Below, in pieces: positions 1 through 32,956 of a stretch of 64,000 bases of DNA (the stretch's first letter is position 1; each line of letters begins with the position of its first letter). The DNA is taken from contig NZ_JAEANY010000002.1 in NCBI RefSeq assembly GCF_016019885.1, positions 434,001-498,000 on the forward strand, in the 5' to 3' direction. This DNA comes from Aurantiacibacter sediminis. GTDB lineage: Bacteria > Pseudomonadota > Alphaproteobacteria > Sphingomonadales > Sphingomonadaceae. The position numbers and the translations under genes were made by a program. The notes beneath the pieces were generated by a model. That model was not told where the DNA came from, did no database searches, and saw only the letters and a program-made list of their open reading frames with translations.

Positions 1-1
1 C

Positions 2-25
2 GACGACGAATTCGATGATTTCTGA
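2..25 (+). CDS. C-terminal end of an upstream gene (partial)
   Basis: The first bases read in one frame as Asp-Asp-Glu-Phe-Asp-Asp-Phe followed by TGA. An acidic tail ending 53 bases before the next start, on the same strand, suits the last codons of a gene of the same operon. Too little is present to identify it, and the frame choice is uncertain. Confidence 0.35.
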   Translation, partial: DDEFDDF

Positions 26-78: not shown

Positions 79-1140
79 ATGAAGGATCAAGAAGCCCTCG
101 CGGAACTCGCAATAGCCCGCACTCGTGCGGCGCTGAGCGGCTCGAAAAGCTTCCAGTCGCTGGATGTGGCCGAACAAAAACAATTGTTCGGCGAAATGTA
201 TCGCAGCAATTACGCGCAGCTCGCCGAAGCGACCGGAACGCCCGAACGGCCTGTCCGCCCACGGCGCATGTCCCGCGCACAGGCGGCGAGCGACGATATC
301 GACGATGATCGCCATCTCAATACGCGGATTGACCAGACAGGGGATCTCGCGGGCGACTTCATCGGCCAGGTCGATTTCCCCGGATTTGTGCGCGACCTCT
401 TGAAAGGCGTTTTCGACGCGAACCTGGAAGTCACCCTCGCGCAGATGAACAGCTATCAGGAGCTGCTGCAGACAGCGACGGCCAGCGTTTCCAAATTCGT
501 CAATGCCATCGATGACACGGCCGCATTCGGATATCTGGCGGAGAATAATTCGGACGAATTCTCCATCGATTTCGGCGATGGCTCCGGCACGGGCGGGGAA
601 GGCGAGGCGCAACTCACCGGCCCGACCGGAGAGCCGCTCGATATCGGCGACAATGAAGTCAAGGCACGCATCATGGATGCGAAGATCGCCATGGCCAAGG
701 AACAGCGCGCCTTGCTCCGCGAGACGATCCTTATGGGTATCACTCGCCTGGTCGTCGAGAAAGGAAATGTAAAGGCGAGCGTCCTGTTCGATATCAAGTC
801 GACCGAGGAAGTCGTCAAACGCGACAAGGCTGCCCAGAAGGATACTTACACCTCCGGCAGGTCCGGTCGGATGTCGACCGGGCTGATCGGCAAGCTCGTC
901 GGTGGGGGCGGTGTCGGGCGTTCGAGCAGCCGTCGCAAGTCCAAGATCAGCATTTCGACCGTGGATTCAAAAGCGACGACGGAACTTGCAGCCAAAGTCG
1001 CCGGCTCGGTCGATATCACGTTCAAATCAGATTACTTCAAGCTCGACAATTTCGCCACGATGTACGGACCGGAAGCTGGCGGCGCGCAGGCACCGCAGGG
1101 GTCCAATGCAGGCGCAGGCGGCCAATCCGGTGGCCAATAG
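79..1140 (+). CDS. Uncharacterised protein, first gene of the six-gene unknown operon
   Basis: A 353-residue soluble-looking protein with no signal peptide or membrane helix. Residues 1-60 are helical and charged. Residues 95-150 form an amphipathic helical block around VDFPGFVRDLLKGVF. Residues 185-225 are helical. Residues 226-325 look beta-rich (VKASVLFDI, KISISTVDS, VDITFKSDYF) and are split by a Gly/Ser/Arg-rich loop at 272-290 (KLVGGGGVGRSSSRRKSK). The tail is Gly/Ala/Gln-rich. The general pattern resembles unannotated proteins I have seen in other proteobacteria, but I cannot name a family. It is followed after 15 bases by the next gene on the same strand, so it is probably co-transcribed with the five genes downstream. 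A role as a structural or carrier component is a guess. Confidence 0.8.
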   Translation: MKDQEALAELAIARTRAALSGSKSFQSLDVAEQKQLFGEMYRSNYAQLAEATGTPERPVRPRRMSRAQAASDDIDDDRHLNTRIDQTGDLAGDFIGQVDFPGFVRDLLKGVFDANLEVTLAQMNSYQELLQTATASVSKFVNAIDDTAAFGYLAENNSDEFSIDFGDGSGTGGEGEAQLTGPTGEPLDIGDNEVKARIMDAKIAMAKEQRALLRETILMGITRLVVEKGNVKASVLFDIKSTEEVVKRDKAAQKDTYTSGRSGRMSTGLIGKLVGGGGVGRSSSRRKSKISISTVDSKATTELAAKVAGSVDITFKSDYFKLDNFATMYGPEAGGAQAPQGSNAGAGGQSGGQ

Positions 1141-1155
1141 GGAAGGGGATCAGCG

Positions 1156-3354
1156 ATGGCCTTGGCCCATATCCGCCCCGACCCTGCAGGCGGCGCGCCC
1201 GGCACGCGTAGCTTCATCGCAGAGCTTGGCGCGAGCCGATATTGGCGTGTCGCCGTCGGTCCGGAAGAGACACGGCGCACCGATGGCGCCCGCCTCATGG
1301 CCAAACCGGCTCATGTTAGCCAAGTCAGCGGACCTGTCCCGCCAGAAGCGCGTGGACGTGTGCGCGTCACCATCCCGGAAGAGCATTTCGACCGCGAGAA
1401 CGGGCATGTGCAGCTCATGACCTATCGTGATGCCAATGGGACCGGACCGGCTTTCTCACCGGTCGTGCGCAGCGCGCCGGGGCTTCCCGATGCCATGCCC
1501 GCCCTTGGCTTCAGCGCGCGTGGTGTCCGCTCGCTGCCGCACACGCAGCCCCAGACTGCAGCGCTTAGCTGGAAACAGCCGACCCACGTTTCGTATGCGA
1601 TGGTGCTTCCGGCATTTCTCGCGCCGCTTCTGTCCGCAGCAGGGCCGTTGCTTGCAGGGGCTTTACCAAAGCTGGCCACCTCGGTTGCGCCTCTCGCAGG
1701 CCAATTGCTGCAATCGGTCTTGGCTGGCCGCGAGGCTCCGCAAAACGCAGACCAGACCAGCCAGGATCGGCAGGCGCTCGATGCAGCGATTGCAGCCCTG
1801 CGAGCGCTGGCGGGAACGGGCGCACAGGCCCCTGGCGCAAACGGGGCTGCGGCCAATCCTCCCGCTCAGGCACAATCCATGCGCAATATCCGGCGGCGAA
1901 AGGCGCGCGGAGCGAGCCGGAGCAGCGCCTTCGCGCGTGAAGGCACGGCGCGTAGTCATCTGGCCAGCATGCAGCGACGCTCCCTTTCCCTGCGTCAGCA
2001 ATTGCCGGTTGAGCGTTCCCAAGCGATGGTCGCGCCCCTCGCCGCGCTGCTGCCGATGCTGACGCCGCTCTTGGGCAAAGTGCTGACGCCGGAAACCGTG
2101 CAGTCCGTCATCAACATGCCGAATGAGCATATGAAGACGATTTTCAATGCGATGAAGGAAGCTGGAAAGCTGGCCATCCAGAGCGAGGAGCAAGAGTTGC
2201 AGCATCTGCGCGCGCTCACGCCATCGGTGGACGATCCGGCTCTCGATGCGCTTCTTTCAAGCGCCAATGTCGGCTTCTCCCTGTCGAAATCGGAAAACTG
2301 GCAGCGTGCGGAAAGTGTGACCTTGCATATGGAGCCCTGCCGACGGGTGACGCTGAATGGCAGGCCGGTTTGCCTGATGGCTGCGGACACCGCGTGGTCG
2401 TTTCCGCTTTCGATCACTCTTCCGACAAATTCGCAGGGCCAGTATCCGACGCTCAAAAACGCAACCTTGCGGATCGTGGTGAAAGAGAAGGATACCCTGC
2501 GTGAACTGCTGCACAAGCAGCAACCATTGGGACCAGTCGCCGCATCCGGCCCACTTCCAGCGCTTGCGCAGCTCGACGCAGCGGACGTGCGCAGATTGCC
2601 GCAAGGCGTGGACCTGATTGTCGCCTTCGCCGTCATCTGGACCAACAGCGAAGGGAAGAAGCGTGGCGCGCCCCTGCAACATCTGGTGCAGATCGCGGGC
2701 GGACCGATGTTCGATCGGTTGCAGCCTTCCGGTGAGCTGCACCGGCTGGATGAAGAAAGCGGATTTGGCGATTACGTCCACGATGTGTGGCAGAACCGCT
2801 TTCGCGATGACGCGAAGCGAGTGGTGGGGGAACTGACATATCTCTGCCCATTCGCGACAGGGGCACCGTCACATCGTCGCATGAAGACCGAATACCGTTC
2901 GGACGAGGTCGAGCGCACGCGGCAACGCCGGCATTTGCAATTGCGCAGCGGGTTCGAAATTTCGCTCGATACATTGGCAGAACTTGGCCGGATGCTGGGC
3001 GCGGAACCTGTGACGGCACAAATGCGCGCAGCCCTCGGCAGCGCGGCTTTCGCCGAAGCGGCCAATCGCAGCGCCCGTGTTGCGTTCGATTTCCGCGGCG
3101 CACCTCAAGAGGTTTTCCGCCTGCGCGCCGTTCCGACATATGACCTTGCGCGCTGCTATTTCCGCATCCCCGGTGCGGCCGATGCGAAGGGACAGATCAC
3201 TTCGATGGAGGAGCGCGAAGCGCGGCTCCCGCTTCCCGCCAGTCTCGAACTCGAAGTCCATAATGACAGCACGGGTGCGCAAATCGGCATGCCTGTCTCA
3301 TCCAATTTCCTCGCCGCACGGCTGCTGCGCGATAGCGGCGGAGGCGGCGAATGA
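1156..3354 (+). CDS. Uncharacterised 732-residue protein with two related hydrophobic Leu/Ala/Pro/Gly segments
   Basis: The start ATG follows an AGGGGAT ribosome site. Residues 1-100 look beta-rich. Around 147-195 there is a long hydrophobic stretch containing AMVLPAFLAPLLSAAGPLL. A related one lies at 287-320 (AMVAPLAALLPMLTPLLGKV). Both begin with Ala-Met-Val and repeat Pro-Leu-Leu turns, so they look like an internal duplication. The segment between them is basic (RRRKARGASRSS). Residues 340-730 are mixed alpha/beta with no motif I recognise. The hydrophobic parts are rich in Pro and Gly and look more like membrane-inserting amphipathic helices than ordinary transmembrane spans; this is inference. 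The stop overlaps the ATG of the next gene, which implies translational coupling. Confidence 0.8.
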   Translation: MALAHIRPDPAGGAPGTRSFIAELGASRYWRVAVGPEETRRTDGARLMAKPAHVSQVSGPVPPEARGRVRVTIPEEHFDRENGHVQLMTYRDANGTGPAFSPVVRSAPGLPDAMPALGFSARGVRSLPHTQPQTAALSWKQPTHVSYAMVLPAFLAPLLSAAGPLLAGALPKLATSVAPLAGQLLQSVLAGREAPQNADQTSQDRQALDAAIAALRALAGTGAQAPGANGAAANPPAQAQSMRNIRRRKARGASRSSAFAREGTARSHLASMQRRSLSLRQQLPVERSQAMVAPLAALLPMLTPLLGKVLTPETVQSVINMPNEHMKTIFNAMKEAGKLAIQSEEQELQHLRALTPSVDDPALDALLSSANVGFSLSKSENWQRAESVTLHMEPCRRVTLNGRPVCLMAADTAWSFPLSITLPTNSQGQYPTLKNATLRIVVKEKDTLRELLHKQQPLGPVAASGPLPALAQLDAADVRRLPQGVDLIVAFAVIWTNSEGKKRGAPLQHLVQIAGGPMFDRLQPSGELHRLDEESGFGDYVHDVWQNRFRDDAKRVVGELTYLCPFATGAPSHRRMKTEYRSDEVERTRQRRHLQLRSGFEISLDTLAELGRMLGAEPVTAQMRAALGSAAFAEAANRSARVAFDFRGAPQEVFRLRAVPTYDLARCYFRIPGAADAKGQITSMEEREARLPLPASLELEVHNDSTGAQIGMPVSSNFLAARLLRDSGGGGE

Positions 3355-3635
3355 GCGGCCCTGCATCGCGTTTGGAGGAGGACCTGTTCCCGTCCGCTCG
3401 TGATGTGATGGCATCCTGGGGCGATGCCTTGAGCGAAGGCGGCCGGCTGGATGCGATGGCAGTATCGGAAGCGAGCTTCGACCTTCCGGTGGAATTCCAG
3501 CTGATTGACCGCGATGGGCACATGGAGTTGCGTGCTTCGTCACCCACCCAAAAAACCCACACGACAATCCTGCCTGTCTGGCATCGTCTCAGATTGACCG
3601 TGGTTGCGGAGCGCGAGGAGGTGGGCGATGCCTGA
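3351..3635 (+). CDS. Small uncharacterised protein (94 residues)
   Basis: It starts at an ATGA overlap with the previous stop. The N-terminal half is helical and acidic. The C-terminal half reads as beta strands (FDLPVEFQLIDRDGHMEL, then WHRLRLTVVAE). A short helix followed by strands with a charged tail is loosely like the trypsin-co-occurring (trypco) domains of bacterial conflict operons, but no diagnostic residue supports that. Its own stop overlaps the next start. Its size and position fit a small accessory or adaptor subunit of the operon; the function is unknown. Confidence 0.72.
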   Translation: MSGPASRLEEDLFPSARDVMASWGDALSEGGRLDAMAVSEASFDLPVEFQLIDRDGHMELRASSPTQKTHTTILPVWHRLRLTVVAEREEVGDA

Positions 3636-4419
3636 ACTTGCCGATCGCTGGCGGCTCGAGAATTTTATCGATGCGCTGATCTTTGAGCTCGACAAGGCGC
3701 AGGACACGCTTGCTGTCAAAGGCATCAATCGGCGCCTTACCTACACGGTGCGTGATGTCGCGGTCGATCTGAATGTCTTCCCCGATTACTCGCGCGACGA
3801 TCTGCGATTTTCTGTCGCGCGTCCGGGGGATGAAGGTGCTTCGCGCATCACATTCCAGCTTGGTTCGATCACCGATCAGCAAATCAAGGAGACAACGCGC
3901 GATCCCGTCCGCTCGGAAGATATCGCCATATCAGAAGTCGAGGAGCTGGAACCCGAGCTGCGCGAAAGCCTGCGCCGCGTGGGCGTCAATTCAGCACGCG
4001 ATCTTGAGCGTATGGAGCGGCGCAATGTCGATCTCGACCAGGTCGTCCGGGAAAAAGTGGGCAAGGAGACCCCCAGGGGCACGGTCAGCTATGACAAGCT
4101 GGCAACCATTATCTCCAAGGCGCGGCGCAAGGATTTTTCGCCGACTGTACAGTCCGTCTCACTGGCGATGGGCGGCCCCGGCGAAGCTGTAATCGACATA
4201 GCCGGAAAGCATCTCGAGGCGTTCGGCCCCGGCTACCCCATGGCCGTTATCAATGGCGAGGAGGTGGCAGCGGAAAATACGGCAAGCGGCCTACGTCTGC
4301 GCGCTCCGATTGCTGCCCTGCGCGGTGGGACCAACCAGCTAGATCTCGCACTCGACAAAGGCAGCGTCCTGCATTTGCAGATGAATAACGGCGATAACCC
4401 TGCGGAGACCGCGCAATGA
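3628..4419 (+). CDS. Uncharacterised protein with helix-hairpin-helix-like and IPT/TIG-like segments
   Basis: The ATG at 3628 is preferred over an upstream TTG at 3604: it has a GAGGAGG site just ahead and overlaps the previous stop. The product is 263 residues. Residues 1-85 are a helix (ENFIDALIFELDKAQDTLAV) followed by strands ending ASRITFQLGSI, reminiscent of trypco2-type domains. Residues 100-135 (LEPELRESLRRVGVNSARDL) read as a helix-hairpin-helix-like element of the kind found in small protein- or DNA-binding modules. Residues 172-252 are beta-rich, with a VxDIxGKHLEAFGPG turn typical of IPT/TIG immunoglobulin-like folds. I infer a multidomain scaffold; none of these assignments is proven. 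The gene ends in an ATGA overlap with the next. Confidence 0.78.
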   Translation: MPELADRWRLENFIDALIFELDKAQDTLAVKGINRRLTYTVRDVAVDLNVFPDYSRDDLRFSVARPGDEGASRITFQLGSITDQQIKETTRDPVRSEDIAISEVEELEPELRESLRRVGVNSARDLERMERRNVDLDQVVREKVGKETPRGTVSYDKLATIISKARRKDFSPTVQSVSLAMGGPGEAVIDIAGKHLEAFGPGYPMAVINGEEVAAENTASGLRLRAPIAALRGGTNQLDLALDKGSVLHLQMNNGDNPAETAQ

Positions 4420-5540
4420 TGCCGCTCGGGAATCTTCGCGGCACGCGCAGGGTGAAGCCAACGCAAGGCGGCTGGTCACAGACGAAGGCTTTGCCGCAGC
4501 CGGCCTCTCCGCGCCGTGTGCGGAAAGTGCAGCCAGCGAATGAGCCGACCGAGAACCACGATCGTTCCGGTGCGGCCGGCAATTGGTCGCTTCCCGCTGA
4601 AGACGATCTGGGCGTGTCTTTCGGCCATCAACGCGCAGCAAAAGAACGATCCCGCGCGATGATAGCGGCACCGGTATTTTCGGGCGACGAATTGCAGGGC
4701 GAATTCGAGAGTGAGGGTGAGGGCCGCCGCGCGGACACTCGCATTGCCGAGAAAGAGGGCAGCGGCAGACGCATGATGCAAGGCGGGCAACGCCGATCCT
4801 CCGCGGAAGGAGACCGCGCACAGCTCGCGGATGATAACCGGGAGACTGAACCTCGCAGGACCACTTACAAGCGTCCGGCAAATTCCGGGAACACCGGGGA
4901 TGACGATCGCATGATCGTGAAGCGAGACAACGGGCAAAGCCGCGAGGAGGCTCCAGCGCTCGCAGATGTCCTCGATCCGGAAGATGTGTTCGCTATGTCC
5001 GACGCCGGCGAAGGGGCATCGACAAGCGACAGCGCATGGATCGCAGAGGCGCTCACGCGCCAGAACGAGCGCGAACGCGGTGATCAGCCTGAAAACATTT
5101 CGAGCGGGCCGGGGCATGAGATTTTCGACCGGATGGGAAGCGCGCGCAGTGAAGTGCTCAGCTTCGATGCCGGACGCTTCGATGTGAATGCGCGCCTTGA
5201 TGGCTTCGCCAAGGAGCTGCGCCGCGCCGATGACGCGCGCACGCCATCCACGCCACCCGATCTCAACGATCTCGATTTGCTGTCACATGTCGCGAGTCTC
5301 GCCAGCGGAGAGACCGAGGAGAGCGAGAGCGACGCGCCGCAGACGGCAGATCACGAACCGTCGGCGGGAAAAGATGACAACATCGCCTCGAAAGAAGAGG
5401 CCAAAACTGAGCCGGATAACGAACATTCCGATATGCTTTGCGATGCGCCGAAAGAGACGAGCGCAGACACCGCGCAGGACGAAGAGATTTCAGCAGACGA
5501 TCGATCCGAGGAGACGGACAATGCCGACAAGCCTGAGTAA
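4416..5540 (+). CDS. Acidic, largely disordered protein (374 residues)
   Basis: It is coupled to the previous gene by ATGA. The composition is dominated by Glu, Asp, Ser, Arg and Gly with few hydrophobic residues, so most of it should be disordered. The first 60 residues are basic and Pro/Gln-rich; the last 100 are strongly acidic. One island of order stands out near residues 230-260 (GHEIFDRMGSARSEVLSFD), with a periodic helix-like pattern; similar short motifs may accompany papain-like peptidases elsewhere, but this is from memory. The last codons overlap the start of the cysteine-peptidase-like gene, suggesting that this protein acts with it, perhaps as a linker or chaperone. Confidence 0.72.
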   Translation: MMPLGNLRGTRRVKPTQGGWSQTKALPQPASPRRVRKVQPANEPTENHDRSGAAGNWSLPAEDDLGVSFGHQRAAKERSRAMIAAPVFSGDELQGEFESEGEGRRADTRIAEKEGSGRRMMQGGQRRSSAEGDRAQLADDNRETEPRRTTYKRPANSGNTGDDDRMIVKRDNGQSREEAPALADVLDPEDVFAMSDAGEGASTSDSAWIAEALTRQNERERGDQPENISSGPGHEIFDRMGSARSEVLSFDAGRFDVNARLDGFAKELRRADDARTPSTPPDLNDLDLLSHVASLASGETEESESDAPQTADHEPSAGKDDNIASKEEAKTEPDNEHSDMLCDAPKETSADTAQDEEISADDRSEETDNADKPE

Positions 5541-7335
5541 ATTGCAGCACCGTTCCAACCTGCGGCATGCGCGCAGCCATCTGGTGGGCCGTCACCACCG
5601 TCTGTCGCGCCGCAGCCATGCTCAATCGTCCGCGCAGGATCTGGCGCAGAAGCTTATCGCAGCCGGGGCGGATCCGGAAAAGGCGCGAAAGGCAGCCGGC
5701 ATCATTGCGGCGGCACCTTCATCTCCCATCTCTCAAGCGCAAGGCATGCGTTTGCCGTCGGTCGACATCAGTGCAGATGATGTGAAGGACGCAGTCCTTT
5801 TTGCACTCGAATGGTCACCGCTTGGCGTGGCTCTCGACGGTATTTTCTATCTTTGTGACAATTACAATCTGGCCTTCGGCGTCGGACTTGGCGGCGTAAT
5901 CGGATACGGCGTCGGCGGAGGCGCAGGCGGTGGAATCGTCTTCGGGCCAAATCGCACGATCGCTCTTTACGGCACGGTGGGCGTTGTGGTCGGCCTCATA
6001 GTCGACGGGTCGATAGGCGCGCAATTCACCCTCGTGCATGGCGGACTATCTGCCTTCGGCGGCACATCGTTTACGCTGGGCGGAGCAATCGGTGAAGTGG
6101 GCGGCGTGAGCGGGCATGTCATTTTGAACACAAGCCTTCGTCCGATTGGTCTGCAAATCGAAGTCGAGATCCGCGGCGGATTACCCGTGCGAGCTATTGG
6201 AGGGGTTTGGGAAACCTATATCGGCCCTTCTGTGCAGCTTTCATTAGGCTACTACTCCGAAAGTATGTTCGGGCCCGGCTGCAATAGCGGCAACGAGCCG
6301 GTTCCGATCCCGGCTGAAGTGACGGATGAACAGGCGGCGCGAGAAATCCTCGAGTTCTTCTATCCCGATTTTTCTTTCACCGACATCACCGAAAATCACA
6401 AAAAGCTCGCTGCCAGAATGTTGCATGAGGCGATCGAAGCGAACGAAGCGCTGGACTGGGTGCCCGAGCCTTCAGGCGGTCGCCCCGGCGTAGGCTGGCT
6501 TGCAAAGAATGCGGTGAAAATCGCGTGGCGGAAGATCAAGGAAGAACGCTCCATCCGCGAAAACACGCGGGCGACCGTGGCCCGGAATTGGCGGCCTGTG
6601 CTGGATGAAATCCGCAACGGCCTGACTCCGACCGGGCTTTCTGTTTCGAGCACTTTCCAGGCCGGAAAATTCGAAATCGTCAAGCAATTGGCTCAGAACG
6701 ATATTCCGCTCGATCCTCAAAATGGTGGCGGCATGTCCATCGACTGGCAGTATCTGGAGCCCGGCGACATCATCCTGGTGGCGCGCGAAGGCTTTCCGTC
6801 GGACCAGATAAGGGAAGCGACGGGCGAGGATGCCAGCCACGCCATGCTCTATGTCGGTGTCCAGAATGGCCGGTATATGGTGATCGAATCCACCGTCGGC
6901 GGCGTGCAGACCAATCCGGTCGAGGTAGCCTTGGATGGGGCGGAAGCAGCCGCCGCGTTCCGCTACCCCGGATTAACGGGCGCACAGCGCAGGAAGATCA
7001 CATCCTATGCCGCACGCATGGTGGGTGAAGGGCGCGGTTACCATTACTTCGGCCTTATCCAGCAGGCGCGCTTCCGTTACGACGTCGAAAAAGTTTGCTC
7101 AGGCCTTCAGGGCCCGGATGCGACGGCATGCCGCGCTGGCCGCGCCAAGGTTCGCCTCGGCAGTCAGGCGCAGAGCGACAATTTCATCTGTTCGCAGCTG
7201 GTGGCCGAAAGCTTCAAGCAGGCTGGCGTGCCGCTGACCAATGATCCGTCGCACTGGGTGGCACCGGGCGACATGATTGCTCCCAACGCAAACATGATCG
7301 TCGACCTCGAATATATCGGCCACGTCTGGCCGTGA
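5521..7335 (+). CDS. Large protein with a C-terminal permuted papain-like (NlpC/P60, YiiX-type) domain
   Basis: The ATG at 5521 lies inside the last codons of the previous gene; a longer open frame starting at 5188 would overlap that gene by over 350 bases and is rejected. The product is 604 residues. Residues 1-40 are very rich in His and Arg. Residues 118-205 are a glycine-rich hydrophobic block (FGVGLGGVIGYGVGGGAGGG). Residues 290-370 are helical. Residues 405-604 carry the order of a circularly permuted papain fold: GDIILV at 415-420, His440 in DASHAMLYVG, Glu456 in VIEST, and Cys557 in FICSQLVAESF. His before Cys is the hallmark of YiiX/LRAT-like hydrolases, which cleave peptides, amides or acyl bonds. 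The substrate is unknown. As the last gene of the operon it is the likeliest catalytic component or effector. Confidence 0.82.
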   Translation: MPTSLSKLQHRSNLRHARSHLVGRHHRLSRRSHAQSSAQDLAQKLIAAGADPEKARKAAGIIAAAPSSPISQAQGMRLPSVDISADDVKDAVLFALEWSPLGVALDGIFYLCDNYNLAFGVGLGGVIGYGVGGGAGGGIVFGPNRTIALYGTVGVVVGLIVDGSIGAQFTLVHGGLSAFGGTSFTLGGAIGEVGGVSGHVILNTSLRPIGLQIEVEIRGGLPVRAIGGVWETYIGPSVQLSLGYYSESMFGPGCNSGNEPVPIPAEVTDEQAAREILEFFYPDFSFTDITENHKKLAARMLHEAIEANEALDWVPEPSGGRPGVGWLAKNAVKIAWRKIKEERSIRENTRATVARNWRPVLDEIRNGLTPTGLSVSSTFQAGKFEIVKQLAQNDIPLDPQNGGGMSIDWQYLEPGDIILVAREGFPSDQIREATGEDASHAMLYVGVQNGRYMVIESTVGGVQTNPVEVALDGAEAAAAFRYPGLTGAQRRKITSYAARMVGEGRGYHYFGLIQQARFRYDVEKVCSGLQGPDATACRAGRAKVRLGSQAQSDNFICSQLVAESFKQAGVPLTNDPSHWVAPGDMIAPNANMIVDLEYIGHVWP

Positions 7336-7381: not shown

Positions 7382-7458
7382 TGGTCGGGGAGAGAGGATT
7401 CGAACCTCCGGCCCCTGCCTCCCGAAGACAGTGCTCTACCAGGCTGAGCTACTCCCCG
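7382..7458 (-). tRNA. tRNA-Pro, anticodon CGG
   Basis: On the minus strand the sequence folds as a complete cloverleaf. The acceptor stem starts CGGGGAG. The anticodon stem CTGTC/GGCAG encloses the loop TTCGGGA, giving anticodon CGG. The T arm has GGTTCGAATCC, the discriminator base is A and the CCA end is encoded. Its 3' end faces the unknown six-gene operon, 46 bases from that operon's stop codon. Confidence 0.96.
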
Positions 7459-14484: not shown

Positions 14485-14557
14485 GGTCACTCAACCCGCC
14501 GCGAGCGGCGTCTGTTCCATCTTGCTGTTTTTGGCAAGGGGAGGCACACCGCACTGC

Positions 14558-15703
14558 ATGGCCAACAGTTTTACCTTTCATTACGGCCCGCAGGTCGTCA
14601 GCGGCATCGGCGCGAGCGGTGATCTCGATCCGTATGTGCCTGAGGGCCCGATCCTTTTCGTAACCGATGCCAATCTGCGCGCGCTCGGCCTGGCGGATCG
14701 TGCGCTGGCCGGTCTTCGCGAGCGGCACGAGGTGACTGTATTCGACGATGTGCAGGAAGATCCGCACGAGGCGAGCGTGCTCGCCGCGCTCGATGCGGCG
14801 AAAGAAATGGGCGCGACGGGCGTCGTCGGTTTTGGCGGCGGCAGTCCGATGGATGTCGCGAAGGCGGTCGCCTATCTGCTCGGCAGCGGAGACGATATCG
14901 CGGACATCTATGGCGTCGGCATGGCCTATGGGAGGGGCGCTCCGCTGGCCCTTATTCCGACGACTGCGGGGACGGGCAGCGAAGCTACGAACATCTCTAT
15001 TCTTACGGTGGGCGAGACGCAGAAGATGGGCATAGTCAGCAATGCGCTCTACGCGACCTACGCCGTGCTCGATGCGAGCCTCACCACCGGCTTGCCGCGC
15101 CATGTGACCGCGGCAACCGGGGTGGATGCAATGGTGCATGCGATCGAGGCTTACACTACCAAGCGGCTCAAAAACCCGATTTCCGATGCGCTGGCTAAAG
15201 AGGCGCTGCGGCTGCTGTCGGCTAACTTGATAACGGCATGCGAGAAGCCGGACAATCTGGAGGCGCGGGATGCTATGCTCCGCGGCAGCTATCTGGCGGG
15301 CGTGGCCTTTTCCAATGCGCCCTGTGCTGGCGTTCACGCGCTCGCCTATCCACTGGGAGGACACTTTCATGTGCCGCACGGACTTTCCAATGCGCTGATG
15401 CTGCCGCAGGTCCTCACGCACACGATGCCTGCTGCGCGCGAGCTTTATGCTGAACTGGCCGAAGTGGTGGACCCGACACTGACGGGCCTCGGCACGCAGG
15501 CGAAAGCGCAAGGTTTCGTCGAGGCGATGCGTGACTTGGCGATTGCGGCGGGCCTCTCGCTGCGCCTTGCCGATGTTGGCATTTCGGCGGAGCATCTCGA
15601 TCTGTTGGCCGACGAAGCGATGCTGCAAACCCGGCTGTTGCAGAACAATATGATCGACATCACCCGCGATGATGCGCGGCGGATGTATGAGGCTGCCCTA
15701 TGA
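14558..15703 (+). CDS. Iron-containing (group III) alcohol dehydrogenase
   Basis: The start ATG at 14558 opens on [14 protein letters not shown], the usual beginning of this family. A longer frame from 14483 would run into the divergent glycosylase gene. The 381-residue protein has the NAD-binding [14 protein letters not shown], the domain joint [14 protein letters not shown], and the metal ligands in [28 protein letters not shown] and similar His-rich loops. It oxidises or reduces short alcohols or aldehydes; the natural substrate cannot be read from sequence. ATGA coupling to the thioesterase gene suggests a joint pathway, for example the handling of a hydroxyacyl or semialdehyde intermediate. 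Confidence 0.9.
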
Positions 15704-31120: not shown

Positions 31121-32956
31121 GTGACGACCGTGATTGAAGCACCATCATTTCACGCCCTTGCGGCGATGCTGCTGACGGTAGCGGTATTCGTGGCATTCGC
31201 CCGCGGCAAGCCCAGCATCGAAATCGTATCGCTATTCACGATCGCGCTCATAGGCGTGTTCCTCTACTTCTATCCGATGCCCCACACCCAGCAGACCGAT
31301 GGTCTTGCGCTGGCCTTTGCGGGTTTTGGGCATCCGGCGCTGATAACGATCTGCGCGCTCATGATCATGGGGCGCGGCCTTGTGGTTACAGGCGCGCTGG
31401 AACCGGCCGCACGGGTGTTGGAACAGGTGTGGAAGTTCAACCTGCAACTCGGCCTGCTGGTGTCCATCCTGCTCGCCATGTTCCTCTCGATGATAGTCAA
31501 CGATACGCCGGTTCTGGTGCTGCTGATGCCGATCTTCATCGCGCTTGCCGCGCGCGGCGCGATGCCTGCATCGAAAACGCTGATGCCACTGAATGCAGCC
31601 GTGCTGATCGGCGGTATGGCGACGACCATCGGTACGTCCACCAACCTGCTCGTGGTGGGGATTGCTGTCGATCTGGGCATGCCGCAAATGTCGGTGTTCC
31701 ATTACACGCCCATCGTGTTGGCCGCCGCGCTGGTCGCCCTGCCTTATCTGTGGCTGGTTATGCCGCGTCTGCTGCCGGACAACTCGCCCGAAGCCGGCCT
31801 CGCGCCGCGCCGCTTCTTCGCGCATCTGCGCGTGACGCCGCAAAGCGAATTGGTGGACAAGCATTTCGACGAGATCGTTGAGAAGCTGCCCGGCGACTTC
31901 CGCTTCGAAGAGCGGCCGGGCGGCGCGTTCGCGGTCGGCCAGCGTATGCTGATTTCGGGCACGCATGACGGGCTCGAAAACGCCATACGCGTGTTGCGCG
32001 GGCAAGTCGCGCCCTCATGGGTGATCGATGAAATTACGTCCGATTCGCAGGAACGCGGAGAGGACATCCAGATCGTCGAAATGGTCGTTACCGCCGATAG
32101 CCGCCTCATCGGGCGGACGCTCGCGACTTCGGGGATTGCCGACCATTACGGTGTTGCCGTTCTGGGTGTGCACAAGCCTGAGACAATTGGTCCGCAGCAG
32201 GATCATCGCAAGTCGCTGCGTATTGCGGAAGGCGATGTGCTCCTCGCTATGGGCCTGCAAGAGGAGCTTGAAGCCTTCGTTTCGGGGGATAGCCTTCTGC
32301 AACTGGAAGGCGCGCGGGAAATGCCGCGTCGGTCAAAGGCTTTGCTGGCGGGCGCAATCATGTTCTTCGCCATTGCGCTCGCTTCCGTCGGCATACCTTG
32401 GGTCGGCTCGGAGGGGTTCTACCTGCTGAAAGTGCCAATCGCGATTTCCGCATTGACCGGTTCCATCGCTATGTTCGTGACCGGCTGCGTCAAGTTCGAC
32501 AGGGTGGGGCGCGCGCTTTCGGCAAAAGTCATTGTGCTGGTGGCAGCGAGTATCGCCATCGGGCGGATCGTGCTCGAAAGCGGAGCGGCGGGATGGCTGG
32601 GCGAAGTGCTCGCGATGGGTCTACAGTATCTGCCTGCAGCGGGCGTGTTGGCGGCGATCATGATCTTCGTGACTGTCCTCACCAACTTCGCGTCGAATGC
32701 CACTGCTGCGACGGTTGGAACGCCGATTGCCTTTGCCATCGCGACCGAGCTTGGACTGCCGCAGGAGCCGCTGATCCTCGCCGTGCTGTTCGGCTGCAAC
32801 CTCTGCTACGCAACACCGATTGCCTACCAGACCAACATGTTGATCATGGCGGAAGGCAATTACCAGTTCGGCGACTATGTAAAGACAGGTGTGCCGCTGG
32901 TGCTCATCATGGTGGTGACGCTCAGCTTCCTGTTGGTGACGACCTACGGAATGTAG
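31121..32956 (+). CDS. SLC13-family anion permease with TrkA-C domains
   Basis: 611 residues. About ten or more membrane helices are arranged in two halves, around a soluble region at roughly 215-400 with two TrkA_C-like beta-alpha domains (VVTADSRLIGRTLATSG, EGDVLLAMG). MIVNDTPVLVLLMPI and TTIGTSTNLLVVGIA in the first half, and VLTNFASNATAATVGTP in the second, are the signature Asn-rich loops. The family carries sulfate, phosphate or dicarboxylates with Na+. The substrate cannot be told. The start is GTG at 31121; a second GTG nine bases later is possible. Confidence 0.88.
   Translation: MTTVIEAPSFHALAAMLLTVAVFVAFARGKPSIEIVSLFTIALIGVFLYFYPMPHTQQTDGLALAFAGFGHPALITICALMIMGRGLVVTGALEPAARVLEQVWKFNLQLGLLVSILLAMFLSMIVNDTPVLVLLMPIFIALAARGAMPASKTLMPLNAAVLIGGMATTIGTSTNLLVVGIAVDLGMPQMSVFHYTPIVLAAALVALPYLWLVMPRLLPDNSPEAGLAPRRFFAHLRVTPQSELVDKHFDEIVEKLPGDFRFEERPGGAFAVGQRMLISGTHDGLENAIRVLRGQVAPSWVIDEITSDSQERGEDIQIVEMVVTADSRLIGRTLATSGIADHYGVAVLGVHKPETIGPQQDHRKSLRIAEGDVLLAMGLQEELEAFVSGDSLLQLEGAREMPRRSKALLAGAIMFFAIALASVGIPWVGSEGFYLLKVPIAISALTGSIAMFVTGCVKFDRVGRALSAKVIVLVAASIAIGRIVLESGAAGWLGEVLAMGLQYLPAAGVLAAIMIFVTVLTNFASNATAATVGTPIAFAIATELGLPQEPLILAVLFGCNLCYATPIAYQTNMLIMAEGNYQFGDYVKTGVPLVLIMVVTLSFLLVTTYGM

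Follow-up and report, generated by a model that had tools for sequence, protein, structure and literature searches.

A protease-led gene cassette beside tRNA-Pro in Aurantiacibacter sediminis and its counterparts in other bacteria

At the left edge of a 64,000-nucleotide stretch of the Aurantiacibacter sediminis genome (contig NZ_JAEANY010000002.1, positions 434,001 to 498,000; the window hereafter) lie six tightly packed genes encoding proteins without a known name, which raises the question of whether such unlike parts form one system and, if so, what that system does. We show below that the six genes make up the right-hand part of a protease-led cassette of about ten genes. That its core, an S8 subtilase followed by genes A, B, C, D and E, constitutes one system is well supported by its recurrence elsewhere. 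As to function, we tentatively propose that the cassette encodes a horizontally acquired effector complex that would deliver cargo to attack the envelope of another cell.

Gene content and recurrence

The host genome comprises 2.67 Mb in 14 contigs. The features of the cassette and its borders, in window coordinates unless prefixed L002 (the left flank), are as follows.

L002:14587 or 14485 to 15486, + strand: BTAD regulator (PF03704, 6.8e-27), cassette membership uncertain
L002:15680-15877, + strand: 65-aa open reading frame (ORF), cassette membership uncertain
L002:15885-17189 (longest ORF from 15783), + strand: S8 subtilase (PF00082, 6.8e-52)
L002:17186-18277, + strand: coiled-coil protein, 363 aa, outside the window to its left
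1..25, + strand: 3' end of gene A (full gene L002:18302-19525, 407 aa)
79..1140, + strand: gene B, 353 aa, with a predicted N-terminal three-helix bundle, long helices and an amphipathic beta-hairpin
760..1026, + strand: residues 228-316 of B, two alternating hydrophobic/polar strands around a Gly/Ser/Arg-rich loop (249-295)
1156..3354, + strand: gene C, 732 aa, with a predicted beta domain, a low-confidence middle and C-terminal beta-rich domains
3351..3635, + strand: gene D, small protein of 94 aa, 38% identical over 64 aa to the gene in the same place in Adonisia
3628..4419, + strand: gene E, 263 aa, with a divergent, probably Trypco2-like N-terminus, an HhH-like middle and an IPT/TIG-like C-terminal part (the latter two weak)
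4416..5540, + strand: gene F, 374 aa, acidic (net charge -31)
5115..5249, + strand: motif HEIFDRMG...SFD...RLDGF of F, common to proteins of the cyanobacterial loci
5521..7335, + strand: gene G, 604 aa, a Gly-rich hydrophobic domain followed by a permuted papain-like (C92) domain
6727..7323, + strand: C92/YaeF-like domain of G (PRK11479, 1.7e-28, below its cut-off; PF05708, 4.6e-9) with His440, Glu456 and Cys557
7382..7458, - strand: tRNA-Pro(cgg), the right border, a variable site in sister genomes

The ORFs described in the original prediction exist at 79-1140, 1156-3354, 3351-3635, 3604/3628-4419, 4416-5540 and 5188/5521-7335, but two of the real genes start later than supposed: E at the ATG at 3628 instead of 3604, giving the 263-aa form found in the protein database, and the papain-like protein G at the ATG at 5521 instead of 5188. 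All five boundaries are indeed overlaps or under 20 bases (B/C 15, C/D -4, D/E -8, E/F -4 and F/G -20). The proposal of one joint unit of six is supported in that the genes belong together, but the set had been cut by the window edge and lacked the S8 subtilase, the coiled-coil protein and A. The gene just left of position 1, which had been singled out for checking, is A and belongs to the same run, and the unit begins about 5 kb left of the window. The order there, on the same strand, is BTAD regulator, 65-aa ORF, S8 subtilase, coiled-coil protein and A, with gaps of -4 bases between S8 and the coiled coil, 24 between the coiled coil and A and 53 between A and B. The 65-aa ORF ends 7 bases 5' of the S8 gene and had no relative by tblastn in the 13 stretches searched, and the BTAD regulator is less surely a member because 398 bases separate it from the S8 gene.

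This grouping is more than chance, since the gene order is shared with another phylum. S8, A, B, C, D and E stand in the same order in all four complete loci of a first architecture, namely the window genome, Adonisia turfae (L005), Tolypothrix (L031) and a further cyanobacterial locus (L062). Recurrence was established with single-sequence searches and with profiles that most of the four loci helped to build, the exceptions being the B profile, made without the L031 and L062 sequences, and the E profile, made without L031; the small protein D was found by profile in all four. In the Adonisia locus a gene for a helical protein stands between S8 and A, and genes for two acidic proteins and another large protein follow E; identities to the window unit are 47% (S8), 39% (A), 50% (B), 38% (D, over 64 aa) and 41% (E). 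The Tolypothrix copy is plasmid-borne, L031 and L062 each carry one extra gene between C and D, and runs of N appear to have broken a second Adonisia copy into two pieces, L059 (S8, A, B and part of C) and L006 (part of C, D and E).

A second architecture is present in Burkholderia pyrrocinia (L032) and four sphingomonad genomes (L033, L035, L036 and L037; 20-29 kb fetched for each). All five loci encode S8, E, A and exactly four paralogues of B, and four of them also encode a second A-like protein; at a sixth locus (L060) the contig ends after S8 and A. A sigma-54-type regulator gene lies upstream in L032 (annotated) and in L033 (by eye). Homologues of at least four of the genes therefore recur together in unrelated genomes, as had been put forward as a check, and this supports a joint function.

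The families differ widely in their distribution. Of 7993 candidates scored for B, 854 are homologues at E<=0.001, and the 120 listed include Sphingomonas, Geodermatophilus, Oceanicaulis, Hahella and Cellvibrio, those named being called "hypothetical" or "uncharacterized". E has 170 homologues among 3495 candidates, including Gemmatimonadota and Myxococcales, and C has 4, itself included, among 7994. B is rare in sampled genomes, at 1/398 in the phylum, 5/196 in the order and 5/397 in the family samples (own genome counted), and the other four B genomes in the order and family samples carry the second architecture or its contig fragment. It was found in 2 of the 194 sampled cyanobacteria, Adonisia included, and C in the own genome alone among the 385 of the class sample. 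Nineteen longest-contig values, one of them the window's own, are common to the 120 B homologues and the 120 E homologues listed, compared with a mean of 0.78 and a maximum of 5 in 2000 trials of a jitter control, which is further evidence that B and E are linked; three of the 19 (27166, 10421 and 9969) were also found for C homologues.

No Pfam, NCBIfam, PHROGs or PADLOC family matched A, B, C or D above its cut-off. At E<=1, no PADLOC model matched any of A to G, and no PHROGs family matched A to E, so the set corresponds to no known secretion or phage structural module in these libraries. As originally noted, the ten genes scanned with Pfam include no AAA ATPase, tube or sheath protein. We found no description of this gene set in the open-licence PMC literature, among the matches listed, and one may exist elsewhere.

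Predicted proteins of the complex and its linked enzymes

The structural model of B starts with a three-helix bundle (residues 1-50, pLDDT 87-97) and continues with long helices and a beta-hairpin, whose strands (228-248 and 296-316) flank the loop that had been described as Gly/Arg-rich and that holds 9 G, 9 S, 5 R and 5 K in residues 249-295. In a 59-sequence profile (340 windows), the six highest beta-moments include five hairpin windows, with starts at 228, 230, 302, 304 and 306, indicating that the alternating hydrophobic/polar pattern is conserved; the sixth (start 108) falls in a predicted helix. The VIA-align alignment to B covers mainly residues 1-65 and 99-228. Weak Foldseek rows for B include FliF rings and aerolysin or iota pores, which we take as a hint only. 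Some of these are built on such beta-hairpins.

C is modelled with an N-terminal beta domain (1-108), a low-confidence middle of about 270 residues (109-380) and a C-terminal beta-rich part (380-720). Residues 372-516 form a common beta-sandwich of a type found in adhesins and many other proteins. The paired hydrophobic segments reported earlier are present in the middle region, at about 145-170 and 288-310, but are borderline for membrane helices (Kyte-Doolittle 1.83 and 1.71). The C-termini of A are acidic and conserved across phyla (FDDEFDDF in the window genome, DFDDW in four cyanobacterial proteins from L005, L059, L031 and L062) and are perhaps another docking motif, besides the tag described below. 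The coiled-coil protein matches tape measure proteins in PHROGs (2.7e-5), among other coiled-coil matches. Hydropathy shows no N-terminal export signal in any of the ten scanned proteins, which suggests that assembly would take place in the cytoplasm.

The S8 subtilase retains its Asp/His/Ser triad (AVLDTG, HGTHVAG and GTSHAAP). Its putative partner E has, we conclude with moderate confidence from sequence comparison, a divergent Trypco2-like N-terminus: in hhalign, E against Trypco2 (8 sequences) gave a probability of 67 and an E-value of 5.2e-5, compared with E-values of 0.44 and 0.43 for control profiles of B and C. Two second-architecture E proteins gave hmmscan values of 0.0098 and 0.033 against Trypco2, with 16.6 and 14.9 bits, below the Pfam cut-off of 24.2, and Trypco2 itself had no match in the window's genome. 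The HhH and IPT parts that had been read into E are weakly supported, with TIG in 2 of 30 E relatives and DUF4332, which we take to be HhH-like, also in 2 of 30.

Conflict systems in which Trypco1 and Trypco2 accompany trypsin-like peptidases have been described (Kaur et al. 2020; PMC7159879, excerpts). We checked eight of the ten Trypco2 loci found, with short flanks: one has an S8 gene, and the seven others have neither S8 nor a trypsin motif there. In the exception, a cyanobacterial locus (G1258, L065:6867-14007), S8, Trypco2, CHAT-like and STAND-like genes (the last two by eye) stand in a row, making it an S8 variant of a Trypco conflict locus.

The enzymes linked to the core differ by locus: a C92 domain in the window genome, Amidase_2, C92 and C70 together in one large Burkholderia protein (L032), and C70 in the large protein of a sphingomonad (L033). 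In the window genome and the cyanobacterial loci the candidate enzymes lie downstream of E, and the C92 protein G is last in the window operon. Its recognition as a permuted NlpC/P60 protein was borne out by Peptidase_C92, at 37 bits against a Pfam cut-off of 27, and His440, Glu456 and Cys557, read from the sequence, follow the permuted triad order described in PMC3142127 (excerpts); the Gly-rich hydrophobic domain covers roughly residues 90-250 by reading. The permuted NlpC/P60 protein Tox-Act1, a type VI secretion system (T6SS) effector, cleaves phosphatidylglycerol (PG) and phosphatidylethanolamine (PE) (PMC12994826, excerpts), and YiiX binds a fatty acid (PMC3142127, excerpts). By analogy, G may belong to a class acting on lipids, and the membrane-directed attack suggested in the original prediction would be compatible with the C92 fold. 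G and Tox-Act1 both have a circularly permuted papain-like core that retains His and Cys; unlike Tox-Act1, G has its Gly-rich hydrophobic N-terminal domain and a non-T6SS cassette, and its activity is a prediction.

The acidic protein F shares with three cyanobacterial proteins the pattern H(D/E)(V/I)FD(R/Q)MG...(S/A)F(D/N).G, which was drawn from these proteins and occurs in no other ORF of the 14 stretches scanned. None of the three cyanobacterial downstream proteins tested has a Pfam match, and two appear papain-like by eye. A further short motif, [NDS][RS]L[LFIY]xL[EQ] (the NRLLALE tag), was counted 12 times (0.1 in shuffles), in 9 proteins of L005, L006 and L062 whose genes all lie downstream of E; 9 of the 12 copies fall within the first 13 residues. 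It occurs in no other ORF of at least 90 aa in the non-overlapping set of these three loci, and may act as a docking tag. One unrelated ORF of the window (31121-32956) also carries the pattern.

Insertion site and neighbourhood

The cassette lies between a UXS gene and tRNA-Pro. In the window genome this interval is about 12.6 kb, whereas in the sister genome G1203, whose sequence to the right of the site is 91% identical, it is about 2.3 kb and the cassette is absent. Three of the 20 sister genomes with matches were examined at the site, and in the other two (L085 and L086) nothing in the 17 kb retrieved past the tRNA matches the cassette. None of the 11 other listed genomes of the same genus yielded B. 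We infer from these absences that the cassette is an accessory insertion at a variable tRNA-Pro site. G1203 also has a 57-bp, 93% copy of the tRNA-Pro end (L084:5623-5679), 2.2 kb from the gene (3369-3445), and G1417 and G1420 have partial copies roughly 8 kb away from the site; tRNA-Pro looks like an integration hotspot of the genus. No second tRNA-Pro copy lies beside the site in the window's own genome, and no integrase was noticed there. In G1203 the 57-bp copy and the tRNA gene enclose two ORFs, one of which resembles, by eye, a helix-turn-helix (HTH)/ImmA-type regulator.

The same neighbourhood brings in the idea of a machine remodelling the cell's own envelope, for instance in exopolysaccharide or surface-layer maturation. 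The cassette adjoins an exopolysaccharide cluster, its left neighbours being a Wzz-like gene and, by eye, glycosyltransferase and UXS-type genes; C contains beta-sandwiches of a kind that adhesins share with many other proteins, and one Tolypothrix coiled-coil protein has a peptidoglycan-binding domain. However, the neighbourhood is not shared between loci: the sister keeps UXS and tRNA-Pro without the cassette, the Tolypothrix copy is on a plasmid, and the enzymes vary from locus to locus. We therefore regard a remodelling role as improbable.

A proposed mechanism and competing explanations

In the effector complex that we tentatively propose, the parts would be assembled in the cytoplasm. 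B, or in the second architecture the four B paralogues with A, would form an oligomer built on amphipathic beta-hairpins, the duplication of B and A suggesting hetero-oligomers, while A, D and C with its beta-sandwich domains would serve as scaffold. The S8 subtilase and the Trypco2-like adaptor E would act on this complex, processing or triggering it, since a subtilase with such a partner suggests regulated proteolysis. Linked enzymes would be swapped between loci and, in two cyanobacterial genomes, docked by the short tag; exchangeable envelope enzymes suggest an effector payload. Here the cargo would be G, F would be an acidic partner or a chaperone for it, and the cargo would leave as a released or inserted protein complex. 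A broader version, in which the cassette represents a new class of particle for protein delivery that does not descend from phage tails, with a ring or tube of B (one kind of subunit here, four in the second architecture) made from the amphipathic hairpins, a beta-sandwich scaffold, arming by subtilase and a Trypco2-type adaptor and envelope-attacking cargo loaded through short N-terminal tags, appears doubtful to us.

Several observations weigh against an effector complex of this kind. Delivery and membrane insertion of the complex are postulated, the B model is poor overall (pLDDT 69, pTM 0.38), and Foldseek found no match for B in the PDB at E<=0.001 (63 with E<=10). C and D have no profile match (E<=0.001) in the second-architecture loci, and in L032 and L033 the large enzyme protein is encoded 5' of B, E and S8 and not at the 3' end. 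The NRLLALE tag is matched by neither F nor G of the window, nearly but not fully by the third large downstream protein of L005, and by no protein found in Tolypothrix L031. Trypco2 is unmatched at E<=1 in all 30 first-architecture E proteins, and comparisons with Trypco2 profiles built from one or two sequences were negative (0.42-0.56). We recognised no immunity gene among the genes read around G, an unusual situation for antibacterial delivery. Finally, the S8 core resembles PADLOC "subtilase" (3.2e-28) and IetS (3.2e-9) proteins and, like the Trypco2-like domain of E, points as well to an intracellular conflict system.

In such a system, acting by abortive infection or programmed lysis, S8 and E would sense invasion, then cleave and free B, C and the enzymes, and the cell's own envelope would be destroyed. 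Beyond the S8 and E resemblances, the peptidase neighbours of Trypco1/2, the cyanobacterial Trypco2 that adjoins S8 near CHAT-like and STAND-like genes, the missing immunity gene and the lack of export signals would all suit it. The known Trypco-peptidase systems (PMC7159879, excerpts) are likewise similar in encoding a Trypco2-like domain with a peptidase and variable effectors. Unlike them, the cassette combines an S8 peptidase with a divergent Trypco2-like domain that precedes HhH/IPT-like parts, and it has A, B, C and D, which lack relatives in the libraries searched. No sensor was recognised in the cassette, and no MoxR-vWA or STAND NTPase by Pfam among the ten genes scanned. Together with the single S8 gene among the eight short-flanked Trypco2 loci, the lack of PADLOC matches for A to G, and the several tagged proteins per locus, which look more like a loading scheme, this leads us to consider the conflict explanation somewhat unlikely.

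The S8 catalytic domain resembles type VII secretion mycosins (TIGR03921, E 7e-58), but at 196.4 bits it falls below the cut-off of 278.75, it has no signal peptide or membrane anchor by hydropathy, and no ESX gene was noticed beside it among the genes read. The anti-phage system IetAS, a name that we take from PADLOC, also has an S8 peptidase, but only parts of the catalytic core match weakly, and its partner gene was not seen in the cassette.

If the effector complex is real, it would be a widespread but rare machine of Pseudomonadota and Cyanobacteriota, without a functional name in the sources listed and with relatives of individual proteins listed under the names Geodermatophilus, Gemmatimonadota and Myxococcales, and it would handle toxins using neither tail, pilus nor recognised ATPase. 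The poorly understood Trypco2 domain would gain a possible new context, and with the four B paralogues and the tag, the assembly of subunits and the loading of cargo become open to direct tests.

A last explanation is that the cassette is a relative of extracellular contractile injection systems (eCIS) that has lost its tail and shares their regulators and effector pool. Among the traits of eCIS are BTAD regulators and effectors encoded at the 3' end (PMC8213781, excerpts), and the cassette is similar in its BTAD regulator, its operon form and, in the first architecture, its toxin-like 3' gene. We nevertheless consider this very unlikely: the cassette has no tube, sheath, baseplate, spike or AAA ATPase, A to E have no PHROGs match, and BTAD was seen in the window's genome alone, the other loci not having been searched for it. 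A 456-aa protein (L006:19083-20453), encoded close to the second Adonisia copy and on the other strand, carries a HELTH motif that by eye is like that of DUF4157, a likeness that would favour the eCIS explanation.

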